Shown: piece by piece, positions 17,693 through 29,845 of the stretch
Layout: each line of letters opens with the position of its first letter
How positions within the stretch are numbered: the first letter of the stretch is position 1
Origin: Ignavibacteria bacterium
GTDB taxonomy: Bacteria; Bacteroidota; Ignavibacteria; Ignavibacteriales; Melioribacteraceae
NCBI GenBank assembly: GCA_012719345.1
Contig: JAAYAN010000149.1
Coordinates: 1-46,055, forward strand
DNA length: 46,055 bases
Direction of reading: 5' to 3'
Program-made: the position numbers and the translations under genes
Notes under the pieces: generated by a model
Seen by the model: the letters and a program-made list of their open reading frames with translations, nothing else
Database searches by the model: none
Told to the model about the DNA's origin: nothing

Positions 17693-18631
17693 TCATTTTT
17701 TCAATATTCTCACAAAAAAATGTTCATCAGAATATTCAACCATCTTAATAATATTATTGTTTATTAAATTTTCTGCTAAAGACCATCCGGCACCCGCTTT
17801 TATTAAAAAATTTTCCATTGCATCTTTCCGCATCGGATGAACGGAAAGAATGCTTAATAATTCTTGTTCTGCTTCGGAAGAAAAACTAAAATTAAGTCCT
17901 TCATTAGATGAAATAATTTCAACATTCTTTAATAAATTGTTATAAATTTGAAAAGCTTCGTTTAATTTTTCTTCGGAAGGCGGATAAACTGCATCTTCTG
18001 CCGGAGGTCTTGTAGGTACTAGAATATATGATTTGCTTGCATGAATTTTTTCAATCATTCGTGATGTGTCGATAAGGTTTTGGTTAAAGTCGTTTACATT
18101 CTTTACAAGCATAGTTTCAGTTACAAGGGTTCCTTTAAAATTTTTCGAGAAATCAGAAATTCCGTTTAAAATATCGGGCAGTTTTAATCTGCGATTAGGC
18201 CGGTCAATTTTATGCCAAATATGTTCATCAACCGTGTCAACCTTTACCGAAACCCAGTCTGCGTTGCTTAAATCATCTCTTACTTTTTCATCCCACAGCA
18301 AAGAAGAATTTGTAATAACTGCAATTTTAATATTTAACTTTTTTAATAATAAAATTGTTTTTCCAAGCGATATATCTAAAGTAGGTTCACCATCGGGAAC
18401 AAAAGTAAGATAATCAATAGTTTCATTCTTTTTATTAAGTTCTTTTACTTTATCAATAACTTCTCGAAAGATTTGTTCAGGGGGATAAAATTCCTTCCGT
18501 TGAACAGACATTGTGTTTGTTTTACCGATTTGGCAGTAAATGCAGGAATAGCTGCAAATCTTTGGCGGAATATTATTTATTCCTAAAGATCTGCCTAAAC
18601 GTCTTGATGGTATCGGTCCGAATGTTATCAT
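17693..18631 (-). CDS. radical SAM protein (COG0731-like)
   Basis: The 312-aa protein starts with MITFGPIPSRRLGRSLGINN and carries the radical-SAM cluster motif C26-x3-C30-x2-C33 (PKICSYSCIYCQIG). TFVPDGEPTLD is the GEPT SAM-binding segment, and VITNSSLLW and WVSVKVDTVDE follow. COG0731 includes wyosine-synthesis-like enzymes, but bacterial members of this short type have no proven substrate. They commonly accompany Mrp/MinD clusters (recalled), so a cofactor or protein-modifying role is possible. It sits 9 bases before dps and 10 bases after the PNPOx-like gene. Confidence 0.88.
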   Translation of the reverse strand: MITFGPIPSRRLGRSLGINNIPPKICSYSCIYCQIGKTNTMSVQRKEFYPPEQIFREVIDKVKELNKKNETIDYLTFVPDGEPTLDISLGKTILLLKKLNIKIAVITNSSLLWDEKVRDDLSNADWVSVKVDTVDEHIWHKIDRPNRRLKLPDILNGISDFSKNFKGTLVTETMLVKNVNDFNQNLIDTSRMIEKIHASKSYILVPTRPPAEDAVYPPSEEKLNEAFQIYNNLLKNVEIISSNEGLNFSFSSEAEQELLSILSVHPMRKDAMENFLIKAGAGWSLAENLINNNIIKMVEYSDEHFFVRILKK

Positions 18632-18641
18632 TTTTATTATC

Positions 18642-19016
18642 TCACAATTTTTGCGAACCCGAATAAATTTCTTCGGCTTTAATTGCAGCTACAGCATTTC
18701 CAGATAATTTTTTAGGATTCCATTTTTTCATATCATCAAATAAACTGCCCGATTTGTGATACTCAATATTACCTTTAATCTGATAGGATTTTCGTTCATT
18801 AGTAATAAAAAGAACAGAGCCTTTGCTGCCATTTAATATGTTATTTTTTGTTTTATCAAAATGATTATCTGCCACTAAAATAGTTTCATCATCATAAATT
18901 GCAACACAAGTGACATAAATAGAATTGGGTACTCCGTTTTTATCCACGGTTGAAAAGACTATAGGTCATTCTCTTTTTTTCCATTCATTGCGAACAAACT
19001 GAGGGATTTTTGTCAT
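18642..19016 (-). pseudogene. pyridoxamine 5'-phosphate oxidase-like flavin-binding protein, interrupted by an in-frame TGA
   Basis: ATG 19016, preceded by AAGAGATAAC, opens MTKIPQFVRNEWKKRE and then hits TGA at 18966-18968. The same frame continues at once as PIVFSTVDKNGVPNSIYVTC with DDETILVADNHFDKTKNNIL, SYQIKGNIEYH and AVAAIKAEEIYSG, the normal body of a PNPOx-like protein of about 124 aa. In relatives I recall, the interrupted position is glycine (RxGPxVLTTVD), so a single GGA-to-TGA change would explain it. A GTG at 18947 could start a truncated 101-aa product lacking the first strand. It lies between mrp and the radical SAM gene in one operon. Confidence 0.82.
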
Positions 19017-19032
19017 AGTTATCTCTTATTTT

Positions 19033-19857
19033 TTATTTAATATTATTTGTAAAATTATACTCAATATCACAAGCAATATTTTTCATAGCTTTCGATACAT
19101 CGGAATCAGGTTTTTCTAACAAAATTGGTTTTCCATTATCTCCTAATTTTCTGGCATCTATATCAATTGGTATAGAACCGAGGAAAGGTAAATTGTATTT
19201 TTCAGCAAGTTGTTTTCCGCCTCCTGTACCAAAAATATCAATAGCGTTTTTACAATGCGGACAAATAAAGCCTGCCATGTTTTCAACAATTCCAATGTGT
19301 TTGATTTCTAATTTTTTTGCCATATTTACAGCTCTTTCAGCATCCATTACCGAAACTTCCTGAGGTGTAGTTACAACAACAGCATAATCTGGTTTCATCT
19401 GTTGGGCAATGGTTAATATTTCATCTCCAGTGCCGGGCGGCAAATCAGCAATTAAATAATCAAGTTCGCCCCAAATTACATCCGATAAAAATTGATTAAT
19501 AACTTTTGAGCGCATTGGTCCGCGCCAAATTAAAGCTTGACCATTTTTTATCATGCTTGCCATCGAAATAATCTTTGTTCCGTATTTTTCAAAAGGAATT
19601 ATTTGAGTATCAAGCACAATTAAATCGTCATTAATACCTAACATTTTGGGTACGTTAGGTCCGGTTATATCAGCATCTAGTATACCCGTTAAAAAACCTT
19701 CGCTTTGAAGCGAATACGCAAGGTTAACGCTTACAGTTGTTTTTCCTACACCGCCTTTGCCGCTGAACACAACAATTTTATGTTTAATCTTCGAAAGACT
19801 TTCTTCAATTTTAATTGCTTGATCTGAAAGATTAGAATTATTTTCATTGTTGTTCAT
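19033..19857 (-). CDS. mrp: Mrp/ApbC-type P-loop ATPase, Fe-S cluster carrier
   Basis: The 274-aa protein has the deviant Walker A GKGGVGKT at residues 33-40, LDADITGPNVP, the switch LIADLPPGTGDE and the conserved C199-PH-C202 pair (GFICPHC) that holds a bridging [4Fe-4S] cluster between two Mrp/NBP35 subunits. It lacks the N-terminal DUF59 domain of longer Mrp proteins. Mrp carries and transfers Fe-S clusters; in Desulfovibrio an Mrp-type protein is part of the orange-protein system. It heads an operon whose promoter has the same palindrome as the DUF134-MinD operon, the strongest sign that these ATPases serve one pathway. Confidence 0.92.
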   Translation of the reverse strand: MNNNENNSNLSDQAIKIEESLSKIKHKIVVFSGKGGVGKTTVSVNLAYSLQSEGFLTGILDADITGPNVPKMLGINDDLIVLDTQIIPFEKYGTKIISMASMIKNGQALIWRGPMRSKVINQFLSDVIWGELDYLIADLPPGTGDEILTIAQQMKPDYAVVVTTPQEVSVMDAERAVNMAKKLEIKHIGIVENMAGFICPHCKNAIDIFGTGGGKQLAEKYNLPFLGSIPIDIDARKLGDNGKPILLEKPDSDVSKAMKNIACDIEYNFTNNIK

Positions 19858-20286: not shown

Positions 20287-21993
20287 TTATCTTTCCAAGC
20301 CGAAAATAAAAAGCAGCCGAAAAGTAACAGGTTCCTGAACGGCCCATACATTTCGTTGATTTCTATCGACCAATGTAATAGAATTATTAGTAAGTTCGGT
20401 GCTTTTTTCAAGCAGGTAAGCAAGCGGAAGCTGCATCGATGCAATTGTCTGGATAGGTCCCCATCCGTAAGCAAAACCGATAGAACCGGTCATCCAAGTT
20501 TCGTTTTTATAATCATCACGTTTATGCGATCTCTGAAATTCGTAAGAACTGCCGCCTGCAGGAATTACAGACTGACCGTACTCTTTAGTAATGAAACTGT
20601 ATTTACGCAAAAGAGTTAGTGTTGTAAGAAGATTAAGTCTTCCATAAATGTTTATTGAAGAATATGCTTCAAATCCTGTTGCTAAAAAGAAGTAATTGCC
20701 TTGCGAAAAAGTTTCCCAAGATGGTGAAAAACCGTCATCAGAAGGAGAGGAATTACGGATAACATCTTGTTGGTTTGCTCCTAAAGAGCTGTTCCAGCGC
20801 GGGGAAACATTTTTCATAGTTGTATACGATGCTTCAAATAAAACGCCTAAATCAAAATTGTTTTTATCGAATTTATAATTTAACCAGGGATTGATCTCAA
20901 TTGTATATTCGTTCTGTGCATCTGTTCTTAAAGGATCGCTTTCAAGTTCTTTATTTGTGCTGACTCTGTTTTCGTTGTGACTGGCGTATTGCCCGAAGAA
21001 CAAAAGCCCCATATCAAGATCGCCGAATTTCCAGAATCTGATTTTAGAATAAGCTCTTATCAGATCAATATCAATTTCATTTTCGTAACGTGAATCGGTA
21101 ATATATTGTCCTATAAAGTTTTCATATCTGTCGCCAGGTGCTCCAGATTGCCAGAAAAATTCTTTACCCTGTTCATCTATTTTTCTGTAACGAATACCCG
21201 TTTTGTATTTACCGTCTCCATGTTCGTAGCTTAGTTGAACATCAAGCTGTCCGCCCTTATATAAGGTATAATCGGGCAGATACCACGCGTCAAAGTTCTG
21301 GTGTTCCATACCGAAAATGTGATTGCAGGGAGAGGTTGTCCAGCCCCAAGTAATGCGATTAGAGGAAATTTCCCGTCCGTTTTGTGTGAATTTAATGAAC
21401 GAGTTTGGTGCTTTAGAATCTTTTGACTGATATTGAATTTTTAATCCAAACGGATTATCAAAAAGATAATTAGCATAAATCAGCTGAACATCATAATTCC
21501 TTCTCTCAGCTTCTGTACCAGCTGTTACTGGAACAAGCTCTAAAGACTCGTTGTTTCGAACAATACCTTCGGCTTCAAGCTCCATATCAATGCGGTTTGT
21601 CCCAAGTTCGAAGTAAATTTTTCCTAAATCTTCACCGAAATCCCATATTCCTCCTGCGCTGTATCGTGTATCATACGCATAAGAAGAAACTTTCATATAC
21701 GAATAAATATTTTTCGGGTCGCCTGTATATCCATTCGGAACCGGAAAAGCAAAGTCGGTATAGTTGCTTTGATATGTTTCATCTGGCATATTCGATATAT
21801 CGGTAATATCACCTTGCCATGGTAAAGTTTTCGGACAAGTGTATACAAAAAATCCTTTTTTAGGCCATTTTAAAATATCGTGAGGATATGCAAAAATTGT
21901 ATAATAGTAGTTGCTTCCTACAGTAAAATTAGGATTAGCGTATATTTTAAAAACAACAAATAAAAGTAAAGTCACAACTAAAAGTTTTTTCAT
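20287..21993 (-). CDS. unrecognised exported protein, probably an outer-membrane beta-barrel
   Basis: I do not recognise this 568-aa protein. It begins with a clear signal peptide (MKKLLVVTLLLFVVFKIYAN). The mature part has many short alternating aromatic/polar segments typical of beta-strands, for example QLDVQLSYEHGDGKYKTGIRY, LGVLFEASYTTM and SIGFAYGWGPIQTIASMQLP, and it ends VTFRLLFIFGLER. A barrel of porin or DUF-type surface protein is the best reading, without a named substrate. It is monocistronic, with AATGGAGC before the ATG and a terminator after the stop. It lies between the mrp and arsenic operons, in the same orientation, but with 160 bases on its upstream side. Confidence 0.75.
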   Translation of the reverse strand: MKKLLVVTLLLFVVFKIYANPNFTVGSNYYYTIFAYPHDILKWPKKGFFVYTCPKTLPWQGDITDISNMPDETYQSNYTDFAFPVPNGYTGDPKNIYSYMKVSSYAYDTRYSAGGIWDFGEDLGKIYFELGTNRIDMELEAEGIVRNNESLELVPVTAGTEAERRNYDVQLIYANYLFDNPFGLKIQYQSKDSKAPNSFIKFTQNGREISSNRITWGWTTSPCNHIFGMEHQNFDAWYLPDYTLYKGGQLDVQLSYEHGDGKYKTGIRYRKIDEQGKEFFWQSGAPGDRYENFIGQYITDSRYENEIDIDLIRAYSKIRFWKFGDLDMGLLFFGQYASHNENRVSTNKELESDPLRTDAQNEYTIEINPWLNYKFDKNNFDLGVLFEASYTTMKNVSPRWNSSLGANQQDVIRNSSPSDDGFSPSWETFSQGNYFFLATGFEAYSSINIYGRLNLLTTLTLLRKYSFITKEYGQSVIPAGGSSYEFQRSHKRDDYKNETWMTGSIGFAYGWGPIQTIASMQLPLAYLLEKSTELTNNSITLVDRNQRNVWAVQEPVTFRLLFIFGLER

Positions 21994-22153: not shown

Positions 22154-22774
22154 CTAAGATAAATACCTGCAAACAAGAAGCATTTCAGTAGCAATTTGTT
22201 TACATCTTTCATCGTACATTTTTTCTTCGTCATGCGTGTCGTCAAACTTTTTTGGGTCTTCGTAGCGGATAGGGAAACGGGCATCTGCTCCAAAAACTAC
22301 GGGACAATTTTCATCGGCATCGGAGCACGTTATTATTGCAGCGTAATTTTTTTGCGGATTGAAAGGATTGTTATAAGTTTTTGAAAAGCATTTTATGGGT
22401 TTTAAATCTTCGGAATATTGAACAAAATAAACCGGGTTTTCAGATTTATCCTTTTTAGTAATATCGAAACCTGCTTTTTGTAAAGCTTTTACAGCGCGTG
22501 GATTAAATGCAGTTGCTTCAGTTCCGCCGGAAAAACAGTGTACTTTTTTAATTCCATAAAATGAGGCTGTTGTTTGCATCCAAATTTGCGCAAAATGACT
22601 TCTGCGGGAATTGTGGGTGCAGATAAAGGTTATATTCACAACTTCGCTTTTTTTTAACTTTTGAGAAATGTATTCGGAAAATTCCTTTAATAAAATTATT
22701 CTTTTTTCAGGAATTAATTTGAAAGAATTTTCGCAATCTTTTAAGTATGAAGAGATGCTTCGATATAAATTCAT
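22154..22774 (-). CDS. ArsC-type low-molecular-weight phosphatase-fold protein (probable arsenate reductase)
   Basis: The 206-aa protein has the LMW-PTP/arsenate-reductase active-site loop C52-THNSR-R58-S (FICTHNSRRSHFAQIW), followed by HCFSGGTEATAFNPRAVKAL and a late region CSDADENCPVVFGADARFPI with additional cysteines that could act in disulfide relay. An N-terminal helical extension of about 45 residues precedes the domain. The family is common in arsenic clusters of Bacteroidota. Reduction of As(V) to As(III), using electrons from the thioredoxins of this operon, is inferred from family and context. It is the last gene of the arsenic operon, 13 bases after the permease pair. Confidence 0.85.
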   Translation of the reverse strand: MNLYRSISSYLKDCENSFKLIPEKRIILLKEFSEYISQKLKKSEVVNITFICTHNSRRSHFAQIWMQTTASFYGIKKVHCFSGGTEATAFNPRAVKALQKAGFDITKKDKSENPVYFVQYSEDLKPIKCFSKTYNNPFNPQKNYAAIITCSDADENCPVVFGADARFPIRYEDPKKFDDTHDEEKMYDERCKQIATEMLLVCRYLS

Positions 22775-22787
22775 TTTTATCCTTTCA

Positions 22788-23321
22788 CTATAAATTATTA
22801 ATTTCGAATTTTTTATTCTTAAGGTATTTTTCCATAATTATAGCAATTACAATAAAAACCGGGATGCTGATTATTGTCCGCAGTAACGAAAATTTTACAC
22901 CGAGAAAACTGATTTCGAAGGTAAGCATTGGCAATTTAAGAGATGAAAATGCGCCAAGATAAATAAACACATTTTTAATACTGCATCCCTTTTTCCAAAG
23001 CATATAGGCAACGGGAAAAGCCCCGTATAGCGGACCTGCCTGAAGCATCGCAAGAAAAATAACAATTAACGAACCTTTAATTCCTGAAAATTCACCAACG
23101 TGCTTGGCTACTGTTTCCTTAGGAACCCAAACATCAAACAGCCCTATTATTATAAACAACAAAGGTAAAAATGAAAGCATTTCTATCAGGAAATCGGCAA
23201 AGTTATTTTTTGTAATTTCAATTACTGGCTGGTAATCAATGGAAAAAGAAATAACTGCAATGATAGTGAAAATAGTTATTACAGAAATATCGAAAAGATT
23301 TTTTTTAATAAACATTTTCAT
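22788..23321 (-). CDS. permease half-protein B (split ArsP/COG0701-like permease)
   Basis: This 177-aa membrane protein has about five hydrophobic segments and the motif KHVGEFSGIKG followed by AGPLYGAFPVAYMLWKKG, LPMLTFE and LGVKFSLLRTI. It aligns by eye with its upstream neighbour (GESSGITG, PGFIAYPVCGYLVKSG, ITFPIERKFFGFNVALLRNI), so the two are paralogous halves of one permease design. The ATG at 23321 overlaps the stop of half A by 4 bases, ensuring equal synthesis. The substrate is probably an arsenical or metabolite of thiol-arsenic chemistry, judging only from the operon. Confidence 0.8.
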   Translation of the reverse strand: MKMFIKKNLFDISVITIFTIIAVISFSIDYQPVIEITKNNFADFLIEMLSFLPLLFIIIGLFDVWVPKETVAKHVGEFSGIKGSLIVIFLAMLQAGPLYGAFPVAYMLWKKGCSIKNVFIYLGAFSSLKLPMLTFEISFLGVKFSLLRTIISIPVFIVIAIIMEKYLKNKKFEINNL

Positions 23322-23797
23322 ATGATATTCCAGAATAAACCAATTAGAATTCCAATAATTAATGCTCCAGCCAGACTGAGTATATTTCTTAACAACGCAA
23401 CATTAAAACCGAAAAATTTCCGTTCGATAGGGAATGTAATAATGCCGACCATCATTAAAGTTGTTATAAATACTGCAATAACCGGATATCCAACGCCGCT
23501 TTTAACAAGATAACCGCAGACTGGATAAGCGATAAAACCGGGAACCAGAGCAATCGAGCCAATTAAAGCCGCAAAAACATAACCGGTAATTCCGGAACTT
23601 TCTCCAAAATATTCCAGCATAACTTCGTTTGGAATTAAGTATAGAATAACGCTTATTATTATTATTACCGAAAGGATTGTCGGTAATAATTTAAGGAACA
23701 TCGTCATCCCTTTTTTAATGCCTGATAAGGTTTTTTTTCTATCTGAAACGAAAGATGCAATTAAACAAAGCAGGCAAAAAGTTATTAAAATTATCAT
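23318..23797 (-). CDS. permease half-protein A (split ArsP/COG0701-like permease)
   Basis: The 159-aa protein has an N-terminal membrane anchor (MIILITFCLLCLIASFV), a short basic loop (DRKKTLSGIKKGM) and four further hydrophobic segments with MLEYFGESSGITGYVFAALIG, PGFIAYPVCGYLVKSGVGYP, and FPIERKFFGFNVALLRNI. Full-length COG0701 permeases carry two such repeats in one chain; here each repeat is a separate gene. The two should form a heterodimer. It lies 16 bases after ccdA and overlaps half B. Confidence 0.8.
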   Translation of the reverse strand: MIILITFCLLCLIASFVSDRKKTLSGIKKGMTMFLKLLPTILSVIIIISVILYLIPNEVMLEYFGESSGITGYVFAALIGSIALVPGFIAYPVCGYLVKSGVGYPVIAVFITTLMMVGIITFPIERKFFGFNVALLRNILSLAGALIIGILIGLFWNII

Positions 23798-23813: not shown

Positions 23814-24515
23814 TTAGAAAGTTGTGTAAATTAAATAAATACCGCCAAGTATTACAAGAATTCCGCAAATGCGTTTAATCCAAATTATAGAGACTGAGTT
23901 TTCAGTCCAGTTCAAATACTGTTGAACCTTTCCGGCAAGAGTTCCGGCGATAACGATAACAGCACAATGACCAATTCCAAATGCAGCCAATAATAAAATT
24001 GAGTAAAAGTAATCTGTTTGAGCGGTTTGAAATACAACTCCAAGAACTGGAGCCATGTATGCGAAAGTGCAAGGACCGAGTGCAATTCCGAAAATTAAAC
24101 CCAAAATTAAAGCTGCCAATAAACCTTTAGAGTTTGTTTTTTTCAGTCCGGCTGTGTTCCAGTCGAGTTTAATAATATCAAGGAGATACAACCCGACAAC
24201 AAAAAATATTGCTGCAACAAAATAGTTTCCGTAAACGCCAACATCACCCATTAATCTGCCAAGCGATGCAGTAATAAAACCAATCAGTGCAATTGTAAGT
24301 AAAATGCCGAGCGAAAATATCAGTGAAATATTGAAAGTTCTGCCGGTTGAAATTTTTCCCTGCGAGGAAATATACCCGACTACAAGCGGAATACTTGAAA
24401 GATGGCATGGCGAAAGAAGAATTGATAAAACACCCCAGCCGAAAGAAGCGGAAATTGCCAGCCAGATTGAACCGGTTAAAGCGTTATATAATATTGTAAA
24501 TAATTCATCTATCAT
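23814..24515 (-). CDS. ccdA: CcdA-type membrane thiol-disulfide transporter
   Basis: From ATG 24515 the product is 233 aa with about six membrane helices. It has the paired redox motifs of CcdA: LSPCHLSSIPLVVGYI and the duplicated LGPCTFAYMAPVLG, each with one cysteine in a PC motif. CcdA carries electrons from cytoplasmic thioredoxin across the membrane to periplasmic thioredoxin-like proteins. The frame can be extended to 24581, but AAGGAT fits 24515 and the extra residues run into repeat DNA. Its partner would be the exported thioredoxin at 25079-25468, from which it is now separated by the inserted GxxExxY unit. Confidence 0.88.
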   Translation of the reverse strand: MIDELFTILYNALTGSIWLAISASFGWGVLSILLSPCHLSSIPLVVGYISSQGKISTGRTFNISLIFSLGILLTIALIGFITASLGRLMGDVGVYGNYFVAAIFFVVGLYLLDIIKLDWNTAGLKKTNSKGLLAALILGLIFGIALGPCTFAYMAPVLGVVFQTAQTDYFYSILLLAAFGIGHCAVIVIAGTLAGKVQQYLNWTENSVSIIWIKRICGILVILGGIYLIYTTF

Positions 24516-24528
24516 AAAAATCCTTTTT

Positions 24529-24597
24529 TGTGTAACTCTGTGTAATGTATTTAGGAACACAGAGTTTCCCAGAGTACTCACAGAGTTTCACAAGAGT
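24529..24597. repeat. ACTCTGTG-type repeat block, right of ccdA
   Basis: AACTCTGTGT (24534-24543) and ACACAGAGTT (24557-24566) form a perfect 10-bp inverted repeat, followed by further imperfect copies of the CAGAGTTTC unit (24570-24595). The block fills the space between the GxxExxY stop and the ccdA ribosome-binding site. Similar but diverged blocks occur at 25009-25049 and 27455-27501. Confidence 0.65.
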
Positions 24598-24599
24598 TT

Positions 24600-24980
24600 T
24601 TATAAAATGAATCTTCTAATTCCGGTTTTTAATGATTTGACATTAAAATTAATTAGAAGTCCAACTTTATGTTTAGAAAATCTTAAATATGTCAAAACTT
24701 GGGCTTCATGAACTTCGTTTATCGCTTCAATAGCTTTTAGCTCAACAATAATTTTGTTTTCAACCAAAATATCTATTCTATAACCGCAATCGAGTTTTGA
24801 ATCTTTGTAAACTACTGGAACAGCTACTTGTCTATCAACTTTTAATCCTCTTAGTTTCAGTTCAGATAATAGACATTCTTCATAAGCAGATTCCAGCATT
24901 CCGGGACCGAGAAATGAATGAACTTCCATTGCAGCCCCAATTATTTCTTGCGATAATTCCTGAAAGAGATACTCACTCAT
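24600..24980 (-). CDS. GxxExxY family protein (PD-(D/E)XK nuclease-like fold)
   Basis: The 126-aa product contains the family-naming G-x2-E-x2-Y motif in LGPGMLESAYEECLLSELKL (about residues 24-43), followed by the predicted nuclease core YRIDILVENKIIVELKAIE (about 68-86), with D and ExK metal-site residues, and a QVLTYLRFSKHKVGLLINF tail. Family members are numerous and scattered in Bacteroidota-like and other genomes; function is unknown. Here it lies inside the arsenic operon between thioredoxin and ccdA, bordered on both sides by ACTCTGTG-type repeats, so it looks like an inserted unit rather than an arsenic gene. Confidence 0.9.
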   Translation of the reverse strand: MSEYLFQELSQEIIGAAMEVHSFLGPGMLESAYEECLLSELKLRGLKVDRQVAVPVVYKDSKLDCGYRIDILVENKIIVELKAIEAINEVHEAQVLTYLRFSKHKVGLLINFNVKSLKTGIRRFIL

Positions 24981-25078: not shown

Positions 25079-25468
25079 TTATTTTGCTTTCTGTTTCAAT
25101 CCTTTGGCTTCCAAAAGTTTCACAATTTCTGCTTCGGGATAAAAACCTTCGTGTCGTGAAAATTCTTTACCGTTTTCGTCTAAAAATACCTGCGTTGGAA
25201 TTAATTTAATTTTATACTGTTCGCCATATTTTTTTTGATCCTCTTTCCACACATCATAAAAAACTACTTTCACCTGGTCGCCGAATTTCTCTTCAACGGC
25301 TTTCATTACAGGCTGCATCATCTTACAAGGAATACAATTTACCGAGCCTAGCTCAACAAATGTTACTTTAGGTTTTTTAGCTTCTTCCTTTTTATCGGTT
25401 TTAGCAGTTTGCGCTGTTACCGGGAAAGCAAACAAGAACAAAACGAAAAATAATAATTTCATTTTCAC
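25079..25468 (-). CDS. exported thioredoxin-fold protein
   Basis: The 129-aa protein has a signal peptide (MKMKLLFFVLFLFAFPVTAQ), a lysine-rich linker and a thioredoxin domain with active site C45-IP-C48 (GSVNCIPCKMMQPVMKAVEE), then LIPTQVFLDENGKEF with the conserved cis-Pro. It should act in the periplasm as a reductant kept reduced by CcdA. In this arsenic operon it may reduce disulfides or arsenic-thiol adducts, an inference from context. It starts 1 base after the small thioredoxin-like gene. Confidence 0.88.
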   Translation of the reverse strand: MKMKLLFFVLFLFAFPVTAQTAKTDKKEEAKKPKVTFVELGSVNCIPCKMMQPVMKAVEEKFGDQVKVVFYDVWKEDQKKYGEQYKIKLIPTQVFLDENGKEFSRHEGFYPEAEIVKLLEAKGLKQKAK

Positions 25469-25469
25469 A

Positions 25470-25709
25470 TTAAACTCCTTTTAACCAGTTTACAATTTGT
25501 TCATCTTTTGGAATTATTCCAACGGATTTAACAGTTTCATTAATTACTAATCCGGGAGTCATCATAATTCCGTAATTCATTATATCATTAATGTCAGTAA
25601 CCTTTGTGAACTCAGCCTCAATGTTATTTGAAGCAGCAATTTCTTTAACCTTTTGCTCAAGCGTCTGGCATTTTTTGCATCCTGTGCCAAGGATTTTTAC
25701 TGAAACCAT
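25470..25709 (-). CDS. small cytoplasmic thioredoxin-like protein (redox-active disulfide protein 2 type)
   Basis: The 79-aa product is a minimal thioredoxin fold with active site C11-KK-C14 (MVSVKILGTGCKKCQTLEQK) and MMTPGLVINETVKSVG around the cis-Pro. Such proteins commonly follow a COG0701 permease gene, as here (27 bases after the permease stop), and are thought to deliver reducing power or handle the permease substrate. No signal peptide is present. The SD is weak (GAGGTAAAT). Confidence 0.9.
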   Translation of the reverse strand: MVSVKILGTGCKKCQTLEQKVKEIAASNNIEAEFTKVTDINDIMNYGIMMTPGLVINETVKSVGIIPKDEQIVNWLKGV

Positions 25710-25736: not shown

Positions 25737-27041
25737 TTAAAACCACGTTCCATAAATAAGTCCGCTAATTGTTGCCATTATTATAACAAGCGATACATAA
25801 ACAACTGTTTTCTGAGTACCGATTACACTCCGTATTACAAGCATGTTTGGCAATGATAAAGCAGGACCGGCGAGCAGTAAAGCAAGAGCAGGACCTTTTC
25901 CCATTCCGCTGTTCAGAAGACCTTGAATTATAGGAATTTCGGTTAATGTTGCAAAATACATAAAAGCGCCTGTAATTGATGCAAAAAAGTTAGAAAACAA
26001 AGAATTTCCTCCAACAAGCGCAGCAATCCATTCGTTCGGAATTATACCGCCGCTGCCTTCAACTGAACCGAGTAAAAATCCGGCAACCAAAACTCCGGCT
26101 CCAAGTAACGGCATAATTTGCTTTGCAAATCCCCAAGTTTCGCCAAGCCATTGATTGGGTTCATCCTTCGAAAGCGAGAGTGAAACCGTTGTTACAATTA
26201 CTGCAGTAACAAAAGGAATTAAAGGATTGCTGTAAAAGAAAATTGCCGCGAGCAGAACGGTAATAGTTCCTAAAAGCACATATAGTTTTTTTACCTTTAT
26301 AATGAACATCATTGAAAGAGCAAAACCGATTCCAATCAAACCGGTTAAAAACCATTTACTTGCGAACATTAAATACCAAAATCCTTCAGTAGCTTCTGCC
26401 GGCTTACCCCAGTTTGCAAAAACAAGGATTGCAACCAAAATAAAAAAGTGAAGGGATGTTTGCCATAACGGACGATCTTCTTTAATATCAGGCATAGCCA
26501 TCTGTGCATCCGCTTTTGCTTTTTCTTCTTTACGATAAATGAAGGACATTATCAAACCGATAACAACGCTGAAAGAAACGGCACCGATAATTCTGGCAAT
26601 CCCAAGTTCAATTCCTAAAATTCTTGCTGTTAAAATAATTGCAAGGATATTTATTGCTGGTCCTGAATATAGGAATGCAATTGCTGGTCCTAATCCTGCT
26701 CCTCTTTTATGAATGCTTGAAAAAAGCGGAAGTATTGTGCAGGAGCATACAGCGAGAATTGTTCCGGAAAATGCAGCAACTAAATAAGCTAGCCATTTTT
26801 TAGCTTTTGCCCCGAAGTATTTTACAACCGCAGCCTGACTGACAAATACAGAAATTACTCCTGCTATAAAAAATGCCGGAACAAGACAAAGTAAAACGTG
26901 TTCCTGCGCGTACCATTTTGCCAGCGCAAATGAATCGATTATTGCATTTTTAAATTTATCAGATTCAATTGGCATATAGTATGCAAATACAAAAAAACCA
27001 AGTATCCATAAAAAAGGTTTGTATTGTTCTTTCCAGTTCAT
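25737..27041 (-). CDS. permease of the ArsP/COG0701 family
   Basis: The 434-aa membrane protein (about 10 helices) has the two repeats of the family: VVKYFGAKAKKWLAYLVAAF with CSCTILPLFSSIHKRGAGLGP, and a second half LVGGNSLFSNFFASITGAF with TEIPIIQGLLNSGMGKGPAL. The CSCTILPLF cysteine pair is notable. ArsP members export methylarsenite or organoarsenicals; the neighbouring arsM makes such compounds, so this role is plausible. ATG 27041 is preferred; the frame also has a TTG at 27059 inside the previous gene. It follows the DGC gene by 2 bases. Confidence 0.85.
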   Translation of the reverse strand: MNWKEQYKPFLWILGFFVFAYYMPIESDKFKNAIIDSFALAKWYAQEHVLLCLVPAFFIAGVISVFVSQAAVVKYFGAKAKKWLAYLVAAFSGTILAVCSCTILPLFSSIHKRGAGLGPAIAFLYSGPAINILAIILTARILGIELGIARIIGAVSFSVVIGLIMSFIYRKEEKAKADAQMAMPDIKEDRPLWQTSLHFFILVAILVFANWGKPAEATEGFWYLMFASKWFLTGLIGIGFALSMMFIIKVKKLYVLLGTITVLLAAIFFYSNPLIPFVTAVIVTTVSLSLSKDEPNQWLGETWGFAKQIMPLLGAGVLVAGFLLGSVEGSGGIIPNEWIAALVGGNSLFSNFFASITGAFMYFATLTEIPIIQGLLNSGMGKGPALALLLAGPALSLPNMLVIRSVIGTQKTVVYVSLVIIMATISGLIYGTWF

Positions 27042-27043
27042 TT

Positions 27044-27427
27044 TTATCTCAGGATGCAATTAAATTTTACAGAAATCTGGTTAGCTGCATTTTCTATTAC
27101 TTGCTGCGTAATTTCGGTTTTACCTTTTTCAACATTAAAATCAGTCGTTATAAAATGTTCAAAAGGCAGCCCGTGATTTTCAAATATCTTCTTACCGCAG
27201 GAAACATTGCAACCATCAATTACAATATTTTTTTCTGCGCATTTTGCCGATTCGATAAATCCAGATAAATCCGCTCCAACGGCTGCAAGACAAGTCATTT
27301 TACCGTAATTTTCTTTCATCAATTTTCTGGCAACGCTGTCTGCCAAATATCCTGTGTTTGCTGCTCCCGAACAGGAATAAATCAAATTAAGTTTGTCGCT
27401 TCCGCAACTGCAACATTCTGACATCAT
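27044..27427 (-). CDS. DGC-domain putative zinc-binding protein
   Basis: The 127-aa product matches the DGC family (PF08859): LIYSCSGAANTGYLADSVAR (about 14-33), then MTCLAAVGA, AKCAEKNIVIDGCNVSCGKK with the naming DGC motif, and a C-terminal VEKGKTEIT. It has a cysteine-rich start (MMSECCSCGSD). The family is often next to COG0701 permeases; biochemical function is unknown, but clustered cysteines would suit metal or arsenite binding. It lies 84 bases after acr3, across a short repeat block, still in the same orientation. Confidence 0.87.
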   Translation of the reverse strand: MMSECCSCGSDKLNLIYSCSGAANTGYLADSVARKLMKENYGKMTCLAAVGADLSGFIESAKCAEKNIVIDGCNVSCGKKIFENHGLPFEHFITTDFNVEKGKTEITQQVIENAANQISVKFNCILR

Positions 27428-27510: not shown

Positions 27511-28602
27511 TCACAAACACACATCCGGCGGTTTAACAGTTCCTTCCTCTGCTGTTCCAAAATATTTTTTCTGAAAAAACAACGCGACATTAACAAGCGC
27601 AATCAAAGCAGGTACTTCTATTAAGGGACCAATCACTGCCGCAAAAGCTTGACCCGAATTTATACCGAAAACAGCTATTGCAACCGCTATCGCAAGTTCA
27701 AAATTGTTGCTTGCCGCAGTGAATGAAAGAGTAGCGGTTTTGCTGTAATCGGCGCCGACTTTCTTTCCCATATAAAAAGAAACCAAAAACATTATTACAA
27801 AATATATCAGAAGCGGAATTGCAATCCTTACAACATCAAGGGGAATTTTAATAATATATTCACCTTTAAGTGAAAACATAACGAATATTGTAAACAGAAG
27901 CGCAATTAAAGTTATCGGCGATATTTTAGTAATAAACTTTTTCTCGTACCAGTCTTTGGTTTTGATTTTCAGGAAAATAAAACGGGTCAACATCCCCCCG
28001 AAGAATGGAATACCGAGATAAATTAGAACACTTTCTGCAATCTGCCCGATTGTAATATCAACTGTAAAAGTCTGCAAACCTAACCACGAAGGCAGGACAG
28101 TTAAAAATACATAAGCATAAACCGAAAAGAAAATAACCTGGAAAATTGAGTTGAATGCTACAAGTCCCGCAGCGTATTCTGTATCGCCTTTTGCAAGTTC
28201 GTTCCAGACAATTACCATTGCAATGCAGCGCGCAAGACCAATCATAATAAGTCCCGCCATATATTCTGGATAATCCTGCAGGAAAATTACAGCCAGCGCG
28301 AACATTAATACCGGACCGATTACCCAGTTTTGAACAAGAGAAAGAATAAGCACTTTTACATTCTTAAAAACATCGCCAAGTTCTTCGTATTTAACTTTTG
28401 CCAGCGGGGGATACATCATTAAAATTAAGCCTATTGCAATAGGAATGTTTGTCGTGCTTTCCGGTGAAGATTTCATCGATTCCCAGAAATTCACAATTCC
28501 GGGGAAAAGATAACCGGATAAAACTCCGGCAAACATCGCAAGAAAAATCCAAAGTGTTAAATATCTATCTAAAAAAGAAAGTTTTTTAATTTGAGAACTC
28601 AT
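27511..28602 (-). CDS. acr3: ACR3-family arsenite efflux transporter
   Basis: The 363-aa protein has ten hydrophobic segments and ACR3 signatures: [42 protein letters not shown] with the conserved membrane cysteine, [17 protein letters not shown] and [22 protein letters not shown]3 exports As(III) driven by the proton gradient. It is the third gene of the operon, after arsR and arsM. An inverted repeat (28630-28652) sits just upstream and may give it separate control. Length is typical for the family. Confidence 0.95.
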
Positions 28603-28708: not shown

Positions 28709-29515
28709 TTATTTGTATCCAACAACCGTAATACTGAAAATTCCTTTTAGCGATTTTTCAAATTCAATAATTTCAGAACTGGTCAGAAATTCTTTTAATA
28801 AATCTTCAGGAATTTTATTAGCGACAGATCGTTTGATTTCTACATTTGTAAATCCGCTTTCGGTTACAATTTTAAGATATTCATCCTGATCGATTGCTCC
28901 CGAAACACAACCGGCATAAAGCGCTGCTGATTCTTTTAATTTTTCGGGCATAGTGCCTTTTAAAACAATATCGGAAATACAAAAATGACCGCCTGGTTTT
29001 AAAATGCGATAGATTTCGGCGAAAGCTTTCATTTTATCGGGGACAAGATTAAGTACGCAATTGCTTAAAACAACATCAGCAAAATTTTTCTCTACAGGCA
29101 TATTCTCAATATCTCCCAACCGGAATTCAACATTAGTAAATCCTGATTTCACTTTATTAACATTTGCTTTCTGTATCATTTCAATTGTCATATCAATTCC
29201 TACAACTTTACCATCAGCTCCTGTTAAAGCTCGCGCAACAAAAACATCGTTACCTGCTCCCGAACCAAGATCAACAACAGTATCTCCCTTATTAATTCCA
29301 GCAAATTGAGTGGGAACTCCGCAGCCGAGTTTTAAATCTGCCTCAGCAACATAACCGTCAAGCTTGCTATAATCGTCTTGAAAAACAGTGTATTTTTCAA
29401 CTTTCGAATCGCAGCAATTTGATTCTTTTCTGCAGCAGCTTTTTTTTTCATTCAAAACAGCAATTTCAGCATATTTATCTCTTACAATTTTTTTCAATTC
29501 TTCATTGTTCTTCAT
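28709..29515 (-). CDS. arsM: arsenite S-adenosylmethionine methyltransferase
   Basis: The 268-aa protein has SAM-binding motif I VVDLGSGAGNDVFVAR (about 80-95) and GIDMTIEMI, GDIENMP, plus the three cysteines that bind As(III) in ArsM: C65 (LKLGCGVP), C153 (LSNCVLNLVPD) and C203 (YAGCVSGA). The 50-residue spacing of the last two equals that of characterised ArsM enzymes. An N-terminal stretch with SCCRKESNCCDSK adds two vicinal Cys pairs that could also bind As(III). It makes methylated arsenicals, which the ArsP-type permease could export. It starts 9 bases after arsR. Confidence 0.95.
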   Translation of the reverse strand: MKNNEELKKIVRDKYAEIAVLNEKKSCCRKESNCCDSKVEKYTVFQDDYSKLDGYVAEADLKLGCGVPTQFAGINKGDTVVDLGSGAGNDVFVARALTGADGKVVGIDMTIEMIQKANVNKVKSGFTNVEFRLGDIENMPVEKNFADVVLSNCVLNLVPDKMKAFAEIYRILKPGGHFCISDIVLKGTMPEKLKESAALYAGCVSGAIDQDEYLKIVTESGFTNVEIKRSVANKIPEDLLKEFLTSSEIIEFEKSLKGIFSITVVGYK

Positions 29516-29524
29516 TTTGTTCTC

Positions 29525-29845
29525 CTATCGGCAACAGCCAATTTTGTTAAATAATTTGTCCAATTCATTTTTAAATTTGTTCAGAACATCATTGTCAGTG
29601 CAGTAGCAGACCTTTGGTCCGTCAATTGTCCCTTTAACAAATCCAGCTTTCTTTAATTCCTTTAAATGCTGCGAAACAGTTGATTGAGAAAGCGGCAGAA
29701 GATCAACAATGTTGCCAACCATGCAAGTATCCATTTCGGTTAAAATTTGCAGTATTTTTACACGTGCCGGATGAGCAAGTGCTTTTGCAGCATCCGATAA
29801 CCAAATTTCTTCCGGAGTAAATTCATCTTTTTTTGAAAATGCCAT
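29525..29845 (-). CDS. arsR: ArsR-family repressor
   Basis: From ATG 29845 (SD GGAG) the product is 106 aa. It has the winged helix of the ArsR/SmtB family: DAAKALAHPARVKILQILTE, DLLPLSQSTVSQHLKELKKAGFV (recognition helix about 52-66) and GTIDGPKVCYC for the wing. Cysteines C41, C80, C82, C104 and C105 are candidates for As(III) sensing; the C-terminal CC and KVCYC differ from the ELCVC motif of classical ArsR. It is the first gene of the arsenic operon and its promoter overlaps an inverted repeat (29860-29882). The frame extends to 29902 across the promoter, which cannot be coding. Confidence 0.93.
   Translation of the reverse strand: MAFSKKDEFTPEEIWLSDAAKALAHPARVKILQILTEMDTCMVGNIVDLLPLSQSTVSQHLKELKKAGFVKGTIDGPKVCYCTDNDVLNKFKNELDKLFNKIGCCR

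Follow-up and report, generated by a model that had tools for sequence, protein, structure and literature searches.

We consider it likely that two small overlapping genes of an Ignavibacteria bacterium, here called B (upstream) and A (downstream), encode the separate halves of one ArsP-type permease, which would assemble as an antiparallel heterodimer and, in its present setting, export an arsenic compound. The genes lie in a 46,055-nucleotide stretch of contig JAAYAN010000149.1, the whole of which was analyzed and is referred to below as the window. As listed in Table 1, they belong to an ars cluster that runs on the minus strand from an ArsR-family regulator to an ArsC-like protein, in the order ArsR, ArsM-like, Acr3-type, DGC, fused permease F, ArsE-type thioredoxin, second thioredoxin, PDDEXK_3, DsbD_TM/ArsG-like, B, A, ArsC-like. 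The exported thioredoxin-like protein presumably occupies the ArsF position. The pair is annotated only as permease, and a search of the organism's own genome with the ArsP_1 profile gave matches at three places only, namely A, B, and F.

Table 1. Positions of the half-permease pair, its neighbors in the window, and other half-size ArsP-type genes
Feature	Position	Strand	Evidence
ArsR-family regulator	29525..29842	-	Pfam HTH_5
ArsM-like methyltransferase	28709..29515	-	Pfam methyltransferase; ArsM by context
Acr3-type arsenite exporter (SBF family)	27511..28602	-	Pfam SBF, 211.7 bits; Acr3 name from likeness and context
DGC-domain protein	27044..27427	-	Pfam
F, fused ArsP-type permease, 434 aa, two repeats, CSC motif in the first	25737..27041	-	Pfam 243.5 bits (profile 10-293); hhalign; Cys columns
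MTH895/ArsE family thioredoxin-like protein	25470..25709	-	NCBIfam TIGR00412, 100.8 bits against a cut-off of 62
Exported thioredoxin-like protein	25079..25468	-	Pfam
DsbD_TM/ArsG-like membrane protein, directly upstream of B; start codon tentative	23814..24533	-	Pfam 51.1 bits; NCBIfam ArsG model 55.6, below its cut-off of 200
B, upstream half-permease, 159 aa, one ArsP_1 repeat; N-terminus predicted outside, loop following first helix strongly positive	23318..23797	-	ORF; Pfam 33.8 bits; model mean pLDDT 84.9; charge counts
ATGA, 4-base overlap of B and A, with the A start codon in the B stop region	23318..23321	-	
A, downstream half-permease, 177 aa, one ArsP_1 repeat; N-terminus predicted inside	22788..23321	-	ORF; Pfam 45.4 bits; model mean pLDDT 86.2; charge counts
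ArsC-like arsenate reductase, 14 bases downstream of A	22154..22774	-	LMWPc 23.5 bits; TIGR02691 47.3, below its cut-off
Second-type pairs	L273, L274, L275, L276, L282, L286		GNP...SYIIG upstream member, HGP...WY-like downstream member
Third-type pairs	L277, L278, L279, L280, L283, L284, L285		PGGPY in both members
Solo half-size ArsP-type gene	L271:9912-10436	-	
Solo half-size ArsP-type gene	L281:7345-7872	+	
Solo half-size ArsP-type gene	L272:2651-3115	-	

An earlier note on this DNA had described the two genes as overlapping half-genes whose products share a series of motifs in the same order. Both ORFs were found where it had placed them, overlapping by exactly 4 bases, an arrangement consistent with coupled translation, and all of the motifs were present in both products, with GESSGITG in one and GEFSGIKG in the other, followed by PGFIAYPVCGYLVKSG and GPLYGAFPVAYMLWKKG, FPIERKFFG and TFEISFLG, and ALLRN and SLLRT. 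A single BLASTP comparison of A with B gave 26% identity over 97 residues (E 1e-8), and profiles built from their relatives aligned over 157 columns with a score of 145. Chance likeness of two hydrophobic proteins was set aside by the profile scores together with the common E/G/P/R columns; the likeness is above chance, and A and B are paralogous. Both proteins also passed the curated cut-off of the Pfam ArsP_1 profile (PF03773; 32.3 bits, profile length 294). The match spanned profile positions 9-139 in A and 12-132 in B, which is the same first repeat in both, and the family's two repeats per chain are absent from either protein singly and reached only by the pair together. A and B thus have the family repeat and are not full-length ArsP proteins. 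In one alignment of relatives (A5), 28 of 28 A and B rows matched ArsP_1 at E up to 10, and Gate (PF07670) was not among the best 25 of the 33 families that these rows matched at the same threshold. Solved relatives of A and B were sought by sequence with no convincing match, and a search of viral contigs gave a sole match of 36 residues.

We compared the pair with the fused permease by means of sequence sets comprising 107 B, 104 A, and 29 fused relatives. That the cluster also holds a fused version, and that fused members carry both repeats in one chain, had been claimed earlier; both points were borne out, F matching as listed in Table 1 and the first and second halves of the fused relatives sharing homology with one another as well as with A and B. 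The profile comparison of each half with the fused halves, proposed in the note as a check, showed all four to be one repeat. The A-B score exceeded that of fused first with fused second halves (124), followed by A-first (94), B-first (92), B-second (67), and A-second (63). Had a stop codon or a frameshift broken up a fused ArsP gene, the two products would be equivalent to the fused first and second halves, and AU tests, which did not reject alternative groupings of B (p 0.153) or A (p 0.09) with fused first halves, leave some room for such an origin. We nevertheless regard it as improbable, because A and B grouped together in the domain tree (support 100/98), because the A-B and first-second scores lie well above the 63-94 of the four cross pairs, because A and B each have a first helix of their own, and because a wider tree of 75 domains set all half-size genes apart from the fused halves (100/99). 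Overall, A and B are nearer to one another than to the first or the second half of the fused form, and these data suggest that the two forms arose by separate duplications, a split gene being unlikely. One published account of the family (PMC7176098) describes duplication of a 4-TMS repeat inside ArsP, and among the topologies of ArsP members a table footnote in it records a lone '4'.

The description of the pair as obligate likewise held up. We assembled 73 sites, consisting of the window, 12 of 13 loci from a species-genome scan, the thirteenth via a wider region, and 59 further sites chosen from match lists, mostly well inside contigs; B was followed by A at 73/73 of these chosen sites. When 60 genomes were searched, A was present in 30/30 genomes with B and in 0/30 without it. 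Tree distances of A and B across the 73 pairs correlated with r 0.80, compared to 0.12 for the best of 1000 shuffles, although a correlation of this kind cannot separate co-evolution from shared descent. The −4 spacing was seen in 60 of 106 placed B-A pairs, a count in which several loci represent the same place. By a first rule, 18 of 124 B matches lacked A (several loci again being the same place), and on re-examination 10 of these proved to have an A with an overlong ORF start, 3 were pairs of the second type described below, and 5 lay at contig ends. An obligate partnership of A and B is therefore well supported by gene occurrence.

The species-genome scan yielded 13 B relatives, 13/13 with an A-type gene directly downstream, under record titles naming Bdellovibrionales, Atribacteria, Bacillota (four kinds of names), Cloacimonadota, Delongbacteria, and Spirochaetes; apart from the window's own, six named groups at phylum level have the pair. 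Profile searches gave matches in 99/348 genomes around a Thermohalobacteraceae record, 23/117 around Cloacimonadota, 20/198 around Spirochaetes, and 14/344 around an Erysipelotrichaceae record, counts that take in other half-size types as well as B-A. Overall, the pair is common, and most of all so among Clostridia-type genomes. Within the phylum of the window itself, 3/296 genomes matched, one of them through a fused protein, and the pair was present in 2; this rarity suggests gain by transfer.

We next consider how the two halves may sit in the membrane. AlphaFold models of the single halves showed the same helix order in A and B, comprising a first helix, a long second, a short one, two half-length pairs, and a long last helix. 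Charge bias was determined by counting Lys and Arg in loops under several assumed topologies. With four crossings and the first half-helix pair re-entrant, A was positive on the N-terminal side in 104/104 sequences and B negative in 107/107, and among fused relatives the first halves were positive in 29/29 and the second negative in 24/29, with 1 positive and 4 zero. When the second pair was taken as the re-entrant one, A was positive in 93 sequences, negative in 3, and zero in 8, and B was negative in 107; fused first halves were positive in 27 and zero in 2, and all 29 second halves were negative. Under five crossings, A was split (47 positive, 39 negative, 18 zero) and both fused halves had the same sign, and under three crossings with two hairpins, A was positive in 103/104, B negative in 68/107, and both fused halves positive. 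The opposite bias of A and B thus holds under both four-crossing topologies and is topology dependent; the four-crossing topology was selected after the counts, agrees with the 4-TMS repeat as given in the published account cited above, and is supported by counts from related sequences that represent few independent events. This bias suggests opposite insertion of the two chains, the N-terminus of B lying outside and that of A inside. In 15 of the 29 fused relatives, the halves were joined by a linker of 13-30 residues without a hydrophobic segment, which is what an inverted fusion, having an odd number of crossings from one point to its equivalent, would need; the other 14 had 65-121 residues between the halves, with hydrophobic segments.

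Sixteen divergent matches extended the half-size genes beyond the B-A type. They comprised six pairs of a second type, one of them truncated where its contig stops, seven pairs of a third type, and three solo genes for which no partner was found in flanks of 20, 15, and 7.5 kb (the last solo being short, 154 aa). The downstream member of the second type lacked the conserved Glu discussed below in the rows seen, and the two members of the third type were more alike. In the 75-domain tree, B was joined by the upstream member of the second type (94/74) and A by the downstream one (95/92), while the third type and the solos formed a clade of their own (98/90), in which the solos stood next to the upstream member of the third type (99/83). 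These groupings suggest that duplication occurred at least twice among half-size genes and once in the fused line. Charge bias was opposite between the members of the second type (5/5 versus 5/5) and of the third type (7/7 versus 7/7); in the solos it ranged from +3 to +6 with the N-terminal tail and from −1 to +1 without it. The solo genes may therefore be candidates for dual-topology homodimers, and their place in the tree also allows loss of a partner.

The solo genes bear on a further reading of the window pair, in which A and B would each form homodimers of their own, giving two half-permeases that are merely co-transcribed. Judging from the three solo loci, a half can apparently do without an adjacent partner, but A without B or B without A was never seen in the 60 genomes, the A and B distances are correlated, and the bias of A and B is opposite and strong, compared to the near-neutral solos without their tail. 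On this evidence, separate homodimers seem to us quite unlikely, and we retain the heterodimer as the preferred reading.

To our knowledge, the DUF606 family is unrelated to ArsP. It nevertheless offers the closest pattern, together with SMR-type pairs, in that adjacent paralogous halves always occur together, as A and B do, and the halves have opposite charge bias, as A and B have under the four-crossing topologies (A does not under five). The ArsP-type pair differs in its larger repeat, its broken helices, and its arsenic context. The half-size ArsP series of solo, paired, and fused forms matches the one described for DUF606, for which a published account (PMC3962082, citing Lolkema 2008) reports all three forms in one family and pairs with opposite charge bias. 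Half-size ArsP-type genes might preserve the whole route to an inverted-repeat transporter, from solo homodimers inserted both ways, through at least two pairs that were duplicated independently and are locked in opposite orientations, to fused forms derived by one more duplication, the paired and the fused ones standing together in arsenic operons like that of the window; we put this at slightly less than an even chance. The order duplication, orientation fixing, and fusion, as argued for DUF606, would be directly testable, since one family contains all three forms and a single operon both the paired and the fused ones. We found no description of a two-gene ArsP in the open-licence literature searched, which is not proof of an unpublished state; within that literature, the two-gene form and the surrounding series look undescribed, and the two further pair types and the solos are new here. 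If our reading of A and B is correct, a widespread 'permease' family would be a two-subunit transporter, each half of which is misread when annotated alone.

The pair shares with ArsP (COG0701/UPF0718; PF03773, TC 2.A.119) the family assignment by Pfam cut-off, the repeat, and the gene company, and differs from it in having one repeat per chain and two chains. It also differs in its conserved residues. The column of B E124 and A E135 held Glu in 107/107 B and 97/104 A sequences (Gln in the other 7), but in 0/29 first and 0/29 second fused halves. An Arg column (B R136, A R147) was conserved in 107/107 B, 93/104 A, 18/29 fused first halves, and 0/29 second halves. Conversely, the cysteines of the CSC motif, present in 28/29 fused first halves, had no counterpart in A or B, where Cys at any column reached at most 17% in A and 5% in B. 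That both halves have a shared Glu close to the membrane suggests coupling to protons. In the arrangement that we propose, the half-length helices of each chain form two pairs at conserved Pro/Gly breaks, the short helix is amphipathic, and the oppositely inserted chains would close into an antiparallel heterodimer, the counterpart of a fused permease with its two repeats. The broken helices of A and B would meet at the center, transport would proceed by alternating access, and the conserved Glu and Arg of both halves would be candidates for proton coupling. The window pair would most likely export an arsenic compound that its own operon produces or handles, whether arsenite, methylated arsenite, or a thiol adduct.

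To assess the substrate, we examined neighbors within 6 kb at the 73 sites, with labels given by likeness, of which ArsM-like is the loosest. ArsR-like genes were found at 25 sites, a fused permease at 18, Acr3 at 12, ArsG-like genes at 12, ArsE-like genes at 11, thioredoxin at 10, DGC at 8, ArsC at 6, and ArsM-like genes at 3. At 51 of the 73 sites, none of seven arsenic-cluster markers was present within 6 kb, and Acr3, ArsM, and ArsC were absent near 9/9 Erysipelotrichia-type and 10/10 Cloacimonadota-type sites. Mrp and radical SAM genes adjoined non-arsenic pairs at 5 sites each of the 73. An acr3 gene over the cut-off was present in 38/58 genomes, and in 10 of these it was no more than 10 kb from the pair, compared to 0.33 expected, when places were compared by hand and kinship between genomes was ignored. 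Relatives of the window's Acr3-type protein sit in the same clusters as relatives of the pair. In a tree of joined B and A sequences, the window pair fell in a clade of nine (SH-aLRT 100), eight of them with arsenic-cluster genes; the ninth (Bdellovibrionales) had a fused permease ∼10 kb and acr3 ∼13 kb away on the same contig. The label arsenic or no arsenic required 13 changes on this tree, 7 of them being forced by well-supported branches. We conclude that the pair has entered arsenic clusters repeatedly and that the window pair belongs to an arsenic-linked branch; arsenic transport by all pairs of this kind does not follow.

For the window pair, arsenical export is likely, given that eight of the nine members of its clade stand beside arsenic genes. 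The main competing view is that the pair is a real heterodimeric permease with a non-arsenical substrate, for example a sulfur or metal compound of anaerobes. The 51 marker-free sites, the Mrp ATPase and radical SAM neighbors, which also occur downstream in the window, and the absence of a conserved Cys from A and B all favor it, but it accounts less readily for the enrichment next to acr3 and for a clade around the window pair that is arsenic linked in all but one member. We treat this view as a serious possibility, though the less probable one. Characterized ArsP acts in efflux of trivalent organoarsenicals, as stated in one report (PMC6205960). Export by the window pair, if true, would add a two-subunit exporter candidate to the arsenic resistance of anaerobes.

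In structural comparisons, PDB 9x2m chain F, from the sorbitol 'Gut' transporter, was the top match of both models (Z 5.9 with 140 aligned and rmsd 5.1; Z 6.6 with 146 aligned and rmsd 7.6), Z values that are weak for helical proteins, for which the tool asks 8-13. Plain Foldseek also listed this chain for B (probability 0.80, E 0.66) and gave nothing convincing with the A model. The numbering of the chain fits the C-terminal part of SrlE, and the sorbitol PTS proteins SrlA and SrlE likewise spread a membrane part over two genes with a 4-base overlap, annotated as IIC2 and IIBC1. A relation by sequence was rejected, as the A and B profiles were unmatched and one of eight comparisons rose above shuffles, that of SrlA with fused ArsP first halves (31.9 over 128 columns, compared to 22.8 for the best of 25 shuffles). 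Because SrlA/SrlE form a split membrane domain with a 4-base overlap, we regard the likeness as a lead worth following. Gate-family half-permeases, which we take to be SpmA/SpmB-like, are also two small membrane proteins from adjacent genes. Membership of A and B in that family was rejected at an hhalign probability of at most 2.7%, in comparisons whose two 'Y' sets each mixed both members. Separately, the C-terminal part of SrlE scored 27.9 bits against Pfam Gate, below the cut-off of 29.6. Deep links among sorbitol PTS (L204:1833-3352, + strand; PDB 9x2m), ArsP, and Gate permeases are possible.

Several other genes of the window were noted. A PDDEXK_3 (GxxExxY-type) protein is encoded within the ars cluster (24600-24980, minus strand), and a likely relative lies near the pair at another locus (L165). 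Downstream of the cluster, positions 17693-19857 (minus strand) encode radical SAM, PNPOx-like, and Mrp/NBP35 ATPase proteins. Between the ArsC and Mrp genes, positions 20287-21993 (minus strand) encode a 568-aa protein that gave no Pfam match at E 0.01; it has a signal-like start and looks like an outer-membrane protein.
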